Assembly (NCBI RefSeq): GCF_014217855.1
Contig: NZ_CP059059.1
Location: forward strand, 1,240,001 to 1,304,000
Origin: Synechococcus sp. HK01-R
Lineage (GTDB): Bacteria; Cyanobacteriota; Cyanobacteriia; PCC-6307; Cyanobiaceae
Length of the DNA: 64,000 nucleotides
Direction of reading: 5' to 3'
Shown: one piece after another, positions 57,158 to 60,748 of the stretch
Position numbering within the stretch: position 1 is the first letter of the stretch
Layout: each line of letters begins with the position of its first letter
The notes under the pieces: generated by a model
Told to the model about the DNA's origin: nothing
What the model saw: only the letters and a program-made list of their open reading frames with translations
The model's database searches: none
Position numbers and translations under genes: made by a program

Positions 57158-57502
57158 GTGCTTGAAGCAACTCCCTCCAGTCCCCCTGAGCCTCTGACGG
57201 TCGAGGAGGTGATCGGCTGTTTACGCCAGCGTTGGCAAGCGAGTTACGACCTTCAGTTGGTCGTTCGCCAGGGTCGGCTCTATGTCCAGGTGATGTGGGC
57301 TTACCTGGAACAGCAATCGTTTCCCCTCGATGAAGCGGCCTATCGGGAGCACCTTGCTGAGGTTATCGAGGTGGTCAATCGCTTGGCCCAAGCCAATGCC
57401 GTGCGCACCTGGCTGGAGAACACCAGGGATCGTCCCCGGCTTGGCAAGGCACTCAGCCTTCAGCTGCAGGGGGCTGAGCGTCTGGAAGAGTTTCTGCTTT
57501 GA
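57158..57502 (+). CDS. DUF3067 protein
   Basis: A 114-residue soluble protein with a GTG start. The conserved core is QRWQASYDLQLVVRQGRLYV, then VMWAYLEQQSFPLDEAAYRE, a cyanobacteria/plastid-specific family of unknown biochemical role. The N-terminus is Pro/Ser-rich. Its 3' 50 bp overlap the convergent tatC, which is a large overlap for conserved genes. No regulator is evident in the short divergent spacer to petC. Confidence 0.8.
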   Translation: MLEATPSSPPEPLTVEEVIGCLRQRWQASYDLQLVVRQGRLYVQVMWAYLEQQSFPLDEAAYREHLAEVIEVVNRLAQANAVRTWLENTRDRPRLGKALSLQLQGAERLEEFLL

Positions 57503-58193
57503 AGCCCTGGGTGACGGCCACCAGTCCAACGCCGACAAGAAACAGGGCGGTGATCGCTCCTCCCAGCAGCAGCATCGTGATCGGGTCTGTGGACGGGGTG
57601 AGCACGGCGCCGGCGAGGGCTGCTGCCAGCACGACCCATCGCCAGGCCGCCAGCATTCGCTTCCAGGTGATCAGGCCGAAGAGACCGAGCAGCAGCTGGA
57701 GCACAGGCAGCTGAAAGGCCAGACCGGTCGCCAGCATCAGCAGAAGCACGAAATCGAGATAGCGCTCAATCGACCACAGGGGTTCGACCACATCAGCGCC
57801 GTAGCTCACAAGGAAGCGAAGCGCTGCCGGCACCAGGGCCCACCAGGCAAAGGCAAGACCGGCCAAGAACAGCACAGCTGATCCCGCCACTGCCGGCGCG
57901 ATCAGTCGTCGCTCCTTCCTTGTGAGCCCTGGAAGTACGAAGGCCAGGCCCTGATACAGCACGAAGGGCAGCGCCAGGGTGAGACCGGTGTAACCAGCCA
58001 CCTTGAACGATACGAACAGAAATTCACCGGGAGCTAGCTGCAGAAAGTGAATCGACCCCGCCGGCGCTTCGAGAAGGCGGACCAGAGGCTTGACCGCCAC
58101 CAGGCATCCCAGGGCTGCGATCACCACGGCCAGCAGGCTTTTCAGCACCCGCTGGCGCAGCTCCTCCAGGTGATCCGTCAGCGGCATCTCCAC
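57453..58193 (-). CDS. tatC: Sec-independent translocase TatC
   Basis: A 246-residue protein with six membrane helices. The conserved N-terminal MPLTDHLEELRQRVLKSLLA contains the Glu of the twin-arginine binding site; APGEFLFVSFKVAGYTGLTL and TRKERRLIAPAVAGSAVLFL are later family landmarks. It transports folded proteins such as the Rieske subunit and the Tat-signalled lipoprotein in this window. The GTG giving VEMPLTD is the only normal start codon, but the frame is open for 42 codons further upstream back to the rqcH stop; see findings. The 3' end overlaps DUF3067. Confidence 0.93.
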   Translation of the reverse strand: MEMPLTDHLEELRQRVLKSLLAVVIAALGCLVAVKPLVRLLEAPAGSIHFLQLAPGEFLFVSFKVAGYTGLTLALPFVLYQGLAFVLPGLTRKERRLIAPAVAGSAVLFLAGLAFAWWALVPAALRFLVSYGADVVEPLWSIERYLDFVLLLMLATGLAFQLPVLQLLLGLFGLITWKRMLAAWRWVVLAAALAGAVLTPSTDPITMLLLGGAITALFLVGVGLVAVTQGFKAETLPDAQPPAAEG

Positions 58194-58319
58194 ATCGCCG
58201 GGCAGCTCAGCCGCAGGCCTGCTGATCCGAATGGGCGGAGGGGGAGCCTGGGGGGAGGCTGCCGCGGCTTTGGGCTCGTTCGGGTCGACGGGGCTCAGGA
58301 GGGCAGGTTCTGGCTGGGG

Positions 58320-60056
58320 TCAGGCTAGAAGTTCTCCGGCGCTCAGTCGCTGTTCCGCCCGTTCCGGCTCCGCCCAGCGCACGGCTCCGCCTCGGTGACG
58401 CACCGTGCCGGGGCCGGCGCCAGCGATCCTCTGCAGCTGCTCCACTGGCACCATCACCACAGGCACCTTGCGGTTCCGCCGGGCACGGCTGAACAGGGCG
58501 GCCAGATCGGCGGCCAGCTCCAGGTCCGCTTCGCCGGCGAGGCCTGTGGAAGCCTTGAGCACCACATGACTGCCTGGGCATTCCTGGGCGTGAAACCAGA
58601 GGTCCCCTGGCCGTGCCTGGCGCAGGCTGATCCAATCGTTCTGGCGGTGATTGCGACCGACCTGAATGGTGAGGCCAGCGGGACTGCGCAGTTCCAGGGG
58701 CTCCGGGCTGCCGTCCCGACGCTGGGGGGAGCCCGTGCGCTTGCTGCGTTGGCGTGGCTGAAGCAGCTCCTCCAGCTCTTGTTTCAGTTCCTTCAGGCGT
58801 GCCACCCGCTCGAGGGCTCCGTCCCAGCTGGCTGTGAGGAGATCCTCGAGAAAGCCATCACTGCCTTCAATCAGCTGCAATCGCTGCTGATGGTGCCGTT
58901 CACGCTCTTCAAGTTGGGGAACCGCACGGCGGAGCTTGCGCGCGCGCCGATAGAGCTTCTGGGCTTCATCGATTTGTGTGCGCTTCGGTTCCGACAGGCA
59001 GAGCAAAGCATCAGCCTGATGCTGCAGGGCGGAGGCCTGCTCGGTTTCTTTCAGCTTCAGCAACTGCTCTGCGAGCTGCCGCTCCTCCCGCTCCCGCCAA
59101 TGGTCGAGGCTTTGTCGCAGCTCTCTGGCGATCTGCTCCAACTGTCGGCGTTCCAGTTGGTCCCGGTAGTGCCGTCCCAGGCGGAGGCTGAGCGGCTCCT
59201 CAGCCACCGGATTGGCTCCCTCCTCCCCTGACCAGACCTGGTAACGGCCCGCACGATCGATCCGTAACTGGAAGTGCTCATCCTCCAGTTGCCTCAGCCA
59301 GCTGTGCCAGCGGCTGTGCAGAGCACGCCATTCAGGCTCGCTGAGCTCCTGCACCGATTGGTTGAGGCGCTGCTTCGACACTTCTGGATCGTCATGCGCC
59401 AGTTGCCGTGCCAGGGCGGGGCTGATGCCCTGGTAGCTCTGGCGTAAAGCATCCCCGAGGGGAACCGGCAGCAGCATCAGACGCTCATGCCAGCGTTCGA
59501 AACTCTCCTGCGTCGATGGAGGGATTCCTTGCAGCGGTGGGGGCGGTAGGTAGGGATCACCGGTGCTGATCGGTCTGACCCTGGATTGGTGATCACGAAC
59601 CTGTCGCCCCAGGGCAATCACTCGCTCCTGTTCGTCGAGAAGCATCAGATTGCTGTGGCGGCCCATGAGCTCCAACACAAGCCAGCGTTGGATCTCAGCT
59701 CCAGGACGTGGCGCGAATCCGAAGCGCACCACCCGTTCGAATCCGTCCTGCATGAGGCTGACGAGAGCCAGCTGCTTCAGGCTGTGCTGGATCTGTTGCG
59801 CCAGGGTGCTGCCACTGCCTTCGCGCCGAGGGGGGGGGATCTGCACCAGCCTGGCCAGCTCGGCCTGCCAGCTCAGCTCGAGCCACACCATGCCTTTCAG
59901 CGTGCGAAAGCCCAGCTGGAGACCATGGGCGTCTGGCTGCTGGGCCTTCTCAAAGCGGCTGGGCAGGATGCGTCCGCGTAGGTCGCTCAGAACAGCCCGT
60001 AGAGCTGTGAGGTCCATCACCTGGGGCGAGGCACTGAGCGGAAAGGGCTTGACCAT
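58320..60056 (-). CDS. rqcH: Rqc2/NFACT family RNA-binding ribosome-rescue protein (RqcH)
   Basis: About 578 residues beginning [20 protein letters not shown]; the ATG at MDLTALRAV 39 bp downstream is equally possible. NFACT-N domain ([20 protein letters not shown]), a long coiled coil around residues 270-420, and the C-terminal NFACT-R domain with [20 protein letters not shown] are all visible. Bacterial RqcH adds Ala tails to stalled nascent chains on 50S subunits; the fibronectin-binding (FbpA) name is historical. It is divergent from gmk. Its stop codon is in frame with the following tatC frame. Confidence 0.88.
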
Positions 60057-60119: not shown

Positions 60120-60692
60120 ATGGTCCCCCCTGACACATCCGCCAGGCTCACGGTGCTCACCGGGCCCAGTGGTGTCGGTAAGGGCACATTGGTGGCCCGT
60201 CTGAGGGAGCGCCATCCCAATCTCTGGCTCTCCGTTTCCGCCACCACCCGATCGCCGCGGTCGGGGGAAGAGGAGGGGGTTCATTACTTCTTCCACAGTC
60301 GGGCCGCGTTTGATGCCCTGGTGCAAGCCGACGGCTTACTCGAGTGGGCGGAGTTTGCAGGACATTGCTATGGAACTCCCCGGCAGCCGGTGCAGGAGCG
60401 TCTAGCTGAGGGAGTGCCAGTGCTGCTGGAAATTGAGCTTGAGGGCGCCCGCCAGGTGCGACGCAGCCTTCCAGATGCGCTTCAGATTTTCCTTGCCCCT
60501 CCCAGCCTGGAGGAGCTGGAGCGGCGGATTCGTGGGCGAGGAACAGAGGCCGAGGAGGCGATTCAGCGCCGACTAGCGCGGGCCCGTGAGGAACTGGACG
60601 CTCAGTCGGAATTTGATGCCGTGGTGGTGAATGCTGATCTGGACAAGGCTCTGTCCGAGCTTGAGCGGCTGATGGGGATGCACAGCCATTGA
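60120..60692 (+). CDS. gmk: Guanylate kinase
   Basis: A 190-residue enzyme. The P-loop [10 protein letters not shown] is at residues 15-24; [20 protein letters not shown] and the GMP-binding [20 protein letters not shown] follow, then [20 protein letters not shown]. It converts GMP to GDP. The last residues HSH and the stop codon are part of the tandem repeat that follows. It converges on psaJ with the terminator between. Start [18 protein letters not shown] is the only ATG before the P-loop. Confidence 0.96.
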
Positions 60693-60748
60693 GGATGGAC
60701 AGCTATTGAGGATGGACAGCTATTGAGGATGGACAGCCATTGAGTGAG
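60682..60748 (+). repeat. 17-bp tandem repeat starting in the gmk stop codon
   Basis: The unit ACAGC(C/T)ATTGAGGATGG occurs three times without gap (60682-60732) with a partial fourth copy (60733-60743). The first copy overlaps the gmk codons for Ser-His-stop, so the stop codon and its context have been duplicated downstream. The partly similar GGGGATGCACAGCC just before may be the ancestral template. Confidence 0.95.

Follow-up and report, generated by a model that had tools for sequence, protein, structure and literature searches.

The tatC locus

The 64,000-nucleotide stretch analysed here (the window) belongs to the genome of Synechococcus sp. HK01-R, which is a single contig of 2.48 Mb. 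On its minus strand rqcH is followed by tatC. RqcH is an NFACT protein (Pfam NFACT_N, E 2.1e-84), and the tatC product matches the TatC family profile PF00902 with an E value of 2.5e-60, residues 42-245 aligning with positions 1-205 of the 208-position profile. The features around the junction of the two genes, in the order in which they are read, are listed below together with the kind of evidence on which each assignment rests.

58322..58327, minus strand: TAGCCT (TAnnnT), proposed promoter -10 box of tatC, sharing one base with the rqcH TGA (last T of the box, first base of the stop)
58322-58320, minus strand: TGA, stop codon of rqcH
58299..58319, minus strand: spacer from the rqcH stop to the CTG, most of it probably 5′ UTR rather than protein (pN/pS of the seven codons before the CTG in 36 related loci)
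58296..58298, minus strand: CTG, proposed tatC start codon (column counts, anchored column test and selection boundary)
58194..58298, minus strand: proline-rich 35-codon N-terminal TatC leader, proposed to be translated (leader pN/pS in 36 related loci; ATG-started leaders in other families)
58191..58193, minus strand: GTG, first standard start in the tatC frame
57453..58298, minus strand: tatC as proposed here, 281 codons plus stop (PF00902 match, translation)

A first-pass annotation, made from the letters alone, had taken the GTG at 58193 as the TatC start (an ATG at 58187-58185 comes next in the frame) and had pointed out that upstream of it the frame stays open for 42 codons (126 nt, 58319-58194) back to the rqcH TGA, without any ATG, GTG or TTG. 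This description is exact. The upstream reading, PQPEPALLSPVDPNEPKAAAASPQAPPPPIRISRPAAELPGD-VEMPLTDH, came out the same when the tatC frame was re-read, and no Shine-Dalgarno sequence was seen in the window at the inner GTG. An open run of 42 codons would be met by chance with a probability of about 0.13, i.e., (61/64)^42, and openness alone is therefore unremarkable. What goes beyond chance is the conservation of the leader: a TatC with an open leader is found in 31/31 genomes of the genus, and these leaders are alike as protein.

Start codons of TatC leaders among relatives

TatC is present in 31/31 genomes of the genus, in 375/400 genomes of a family sample and in 57/59 of a class sample; the three sets share members, and the window's own genome is counted in them. 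From the named genome collection, the best 80 of 190 relatives were kept. In total, 200 loci plus the window were gathered, and 143 were left once identical 5′ regions had been merged (single loci are referred to below by L numbers). The leader pattern P-x-P-I is present in 109 of the 143 unique loci, which served as the anchor set, with columns counted in codons from the motif Ile (I).

Starts were called by a fixed order of rules. CTG was accepted at I-17 or I-16 and, for the window, L003, L004, L005 and L007, at I-22; the I-6 codon was taken in L006 and L008, and for a hand-made list (L057, L151, L156, L168, L176 and L181) the first leader CTG was used where the rule gave no CTG. Next in order came GTG or TTG at fixed offsets and, failing these, the first ATG. 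As a consequence of this order, CTG is favoured over an upstream standard codon in seven loci; the uncertain ATG calls include L159, L164 and L193.

The calls for the 143 unique 5′ regions were CTG in 64, ATG in 55, GTG in 16, TTG in 2 and none in 6. CTG is present in all 31 genomes of the window's genus and also in many Prochlorococcus, and it is kept across species (26 of 44 clusters at 85% TatC identity). GTG is found in a marine clade. An ATG starts the leader in Cyanobium- and Vulcanococcus-type relatives and in RCC307, and in other cyanobacterial families an ATG lies in the leader in 25/25 loci inspected. The acidic junction before VEM that the first-pass annotation had ascribed to related TatC proteins is real, an xEM junction such as ELPDEVEMSLFDHLE being present in the same 25/25 loci. 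Relatives that begin at an MEMPLTD-like position with no leader, which would have spoken for a leaderless TatC, were not seen: only L108 of the 143 lacks a leader, and its frame, taken from a single-cell assembly, looks broken.

When leaders are anchored on the motif Ile, CTG accounts for 46 of the 49 Leu codons found at I-17, versus 35 of 85 at I-6, a Leu column inside the leader. In the 28 anchored leaders with low GC (GC3 <0.42), CTG makes up 17 of 19 Leu codons at the start column versus 1 of 19 at the internal conserved Leu; in the TatC core of low-GC CTG loci, CTG accounts for 85 of 1,332 Leu codons (6.4%). CTG stands at I-17 or I-16 in 23 of these 28 leaders, and the remaining five are L041 (CTA, with a TTG four codons earlier), L069 (TTG), L079 (nothing clear) and L159 and L164 (ATG elsewhere). 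The product of probabilities is 10^-31.8, a value that ignores kinship. Between clades, the start column switches to GTG, TTG and ATG and not to Leu synonyms, which is unlike the behaviour of an ordinary leucine.

In 57 of the 64 CTG loci there is no in-frame ATG, GTG or TTG upstream of the CTG, and in 31, including the window, there is no standard start anywhere from the in-frame stop to the V column of the VEM junction. In the remaining seven (L006, L029, L047, L084, L151, L176 and L177) an in-frame ATG, GTG or TTG lies 3-6 codons upstream, and translation could start there. A standard start codon inside the leader is found in 28/64. Within the 31 genomes of the genus, a standard start lies six (L006) or four (L029) codons upstream, and one lies inside the leader in 14. 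Exceptions at the start column are L041, with CTA, and L181, with CTC and an adjoining CTG; no start could be called in L079, L087, L108, L109 and L158.

Prochlorococcus-like loci L055, L081, L091, L165, L167, L170, L184 and L194-L200 have ATG-started leaders that are shorter or devoid of the proline motif, showing that in some members of the group the leader itself was shortened. The shortest called ATG leader is of 8 codons, some Prochlorococcus leaders being short.

Other genes of the window were searched for non-standard starts in two scans with four relatives. The first flagged many genes, probably owing to overlapping neighbour frames; the second missed even the tatC CTG column, owing to the change in leader length. 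A separate observation in the window concerns a 17-bp tandem repeat at 60676-60744 (4.1 copies, consensus GGATGGACAGCCATTGA), which runs over the end and the stop codon of a guanylate-kinase-like gene (60120-60692).

Selection on the leader

Coding constraint was estimated from eight groups of close relatives comprising 36 of the 64 CTG loci; these were picked by hand and have gap-free leaders, and the window and L029 were omitted for their length. The pN/pS ratio is 1.33 in the seven codons before the CTG, 0.31 in the leader and 0.07 in the first 30 codons of the core. Likewise, differences at the first, second and third codon positions number 132/105/78 in the upstream codons, compared with 146/168/485 in the leader. 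In this set the start codon is unchanged by construction, which is not true of the anchored column counts given above. The boundary is less sharp in some groups: upstream pN/pS is below 1 in S3, S6, S7 and S8 (two of these four consist of a single pair), and constraint on the leader is weak in S6 (pN/pS 0.79, one pair) and S7 (0.60, ten pairs). Since the boundary of selection falls at the CTG, translation in the tatC frame would begin at the CTG or next to it.

The comparative case for a CUG start of tatC is thus strong. The codon is none of AUG, GUG and UUG, and comparison finds it kept across species (64/143 unique loci). We conclude that TatC translation very probably starts at the CTG at 58298-58296, which would yield a TatC of 281 residues with a proline-rich leader of 35 codons. 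One of the explanations offered by the first-pass annotation, a CTG or other rare start, is in this way strongly supported and its codon specified. Another, loss of the leader, is contradicted and can be rejected, the leader being under purifying selection in the tatC frame.

Upstream box and initiation context

In 63 of the 64 CTG loci a TAnnnT sequence, mostly TAGCCT, is found with its end 22-26 nt ahead of the CTG; shifted slots contain it in 0-5 of 64. The box is kept where rqcH is hundreds of bases away, and hence it does not merely reflect rqcH coding. It is probably the -10 element of a tatC promoter. Among ATG loci, 26/55 have a stricter version, TA(G/A)nCT, 17-19 nt ahead of the ATG; among GTG loci, 10/16 have it 43-47 nt upstream of the GTG.

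Shine-Dalgarno-like 4-mers are present in just 4/64 CTG loci. RNA structure that could serve as a helper was not found either when the region from -16 to +29 was compared with mononucleotide shuffles (mean fold z +0.37, s.d. 0.98).

The bases flanking the CTG are biased. T occupies position -1 in 38 of the 64 CTG loci, and G never does; among internal CTG codons of the same genes, T precedes 210 of 865. Position +4 is A in 56 loci and G in the other 8, and A follows 147 of the 865 internal codons. With one locus per 85% cluster, T is found at -1 in 16/26 and A at +4 in 20/26. At ATG starts the corresponding counts are 3/55 and 47/55, and at GTG starts 1/16 and 0/16. ATG starts thus share the frequent A at +4, which leaves U at -1 as the one feature specific to the CTG loci. 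Base -1 can pair with A37 of the initiator tRNA. The flanks of the CTG fit such pairing beyond the codon; for A4, a pair with U33 is discussed in PMC9841429.

A mechanism may be put together from these observations as follows. The tatC gene would have its own promoter, with the -10 box TAGCCT overlapping the rqcH stop, and its transcript would carry a 5′ UTR of ~16 nt with no Shine-Dalgarno sequence. Initiator tRNA would read the CTG at 58298-58296 as formyl-methionine, and U at -1 and A at +4 may extend pairing with its anticodon loop (A37 and U33, respectively), partly offsetting the mismatch at the first base of the codon. The weak CUG start might then hold TatC output low, which is the least certain step of this scheme.

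Alternative starts

In tobacco chloroplasts and E. coli, CUG gave no detectable reporter activity in one study (PMC9845219). A CUG start of tatC would therefore call either for a contribution of the native context or for very low output. This weakness, and the presence of a standard codon close by, give some room for a second start, at which the internal GTG or ATG would yield a short TatC in the same cells in which CUG yields the long one. Such an arrangement includes the CUG start and adds a second product to it. The ATG at V+2 is present in 137/137 loci with a called start, which speaks for two starts. However, the V column shows no conservation of a start codon, and no Shine-Dalgarno sequence was seen at the inner start of the window, so that we regard a second start as possible but rather doubtful.

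The same codons, GTG 58193 or ATG 58187, could be the only starts in use, which would give just the short TatC and leave the leader untranslated. In line with this, the GTG is the first standard start of the frame in the window, and the V+2 ATG is universal among called loci. Nevertheless, purifying selection acts on the leader in the tatC frame, and the V column is ATG, GTG or TTG in just 32/64 CTG loci, the other 32 having 13 kinds of non-start codon there (CTT in two loci). Loci whose leaders start with ATG retain the V+2 methionine too, and a role as a protein residue accounts for it. It is therefore very unlikely that only the short TatC is made.

Initiation at another near-cognate codon, or a frameshift from an out-of-frame ATG, is more improbable still. 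ATT and ATC do occur in the PPPPIRI motif of the leader, and AUU starts are known in bacteria for infC (a reference in PMC9845219), but selection begins at the CTG, before the motif. An ATG in any frame is sporadic between -45 and +44 (at most 4/64 loci at one position); with no conserved ATG near the CTG among the 64 CTG loci, the frameshift was rejected.

Finally, readthrough of the rqcH TGA, which the first-pass annotation had considered and which would give an RqcH-TatC fusion, can be practically dismissed: the TGA of the window is indeed in the tatC frame, 42 codons away, but of the 64 CTG loci 29 have the rqcH stop in the tatC frame and 20 have it in another frame, while in 14 it lies 421-823 nt upstream and in one no such stop was found. 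The codons that separate the stop from the CTG show no conservation as protein. The locus does not qualify as a stop-codon readthrough gene, the upstream stop not being kept in frame among relatives; judged by these loci, the in-frame relation of rqcH stop and tatC is a feature of the window's clade and not a general one. Thus, of the first-pass interpretation the rare start stands, and leader loss and readthrough fall.

Discussion

Use of CUG at the head of tatC invites comparison with infC, which encodes IF3 and starts with AUU. Autoregulation by IF3 is the reason for that start. As with tatC, a conserved gene keeps a start other than AUG, GUG or UUG, and the weak start may limit output; the two differ in that the tatC codon is CUG, its product is a membrane translocase, and, of these two genes, it is infC for which an autoregulatory loop is known. 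Closer at hand, tatC of the Cyanobium/Vulcanococcus type has the same gene order and the same kind of leader as the window but starts with ATG, which in 31 loci overlaps the rqcH TGA as ATGA. This overlap was seen only in those ATG loci; in the window, the rqcH stop lies 24 nt before the CTG.

Annotated bacterial CUG starts amount to 20 ORFs, or 0.024%, in 69 genomes, as quoted in PMC9845219. Those rest on single-gene annotation, whereas the CUG of tatC rests on conservation over many species. PMC5487733 deals with a fungal case. Our literature search covered titles and the openings of abstracts, subscription papers and supplements lying outside its reach, and found there no CUG start of tatC or of any marine cyanobacterial gene. 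Bacterial CUG starts are thus already known and very rare, and tatC appears to provide an unusually widespread case.

On a TatC tree (FastTree, 137 rows, 58 of 130 inner branches open, root not inferred), the CTG label needs nine changes, and CTG rows are found in most marine branches. The well supported branches force at most one change of the label, many branches being weak. The simplest reading would be that CTG was established early in the marine group and later gave way to GTG, TTG or ATG. Tentatively, and with less confidence than we have in the start codon itself, one may imagine that CUG took the place of the tatC ATG early in marine Synechococcus/Prochlorococcus and was retained as a dosage or regulatory device, in which a UCUGA-like context lengthening the contact with initiator tRNA and a very short leader RNA with no Shine-Dalgarno sequence would keep TatC output low and dependent on initiation-factor levels, and that it was later adjusted to GTG, TTG or ATG.

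Should the CUG start hold true, annotation that admits only ATG, GTG and TTG cuts a selected leader from a core export gene of very abundant ocean phototrophs. A CUG start kept over many species would also be a natural test of why bacteria retain poor start codons, with ready-made controls in those lineages that have GTG, TTG or ATG at this column.
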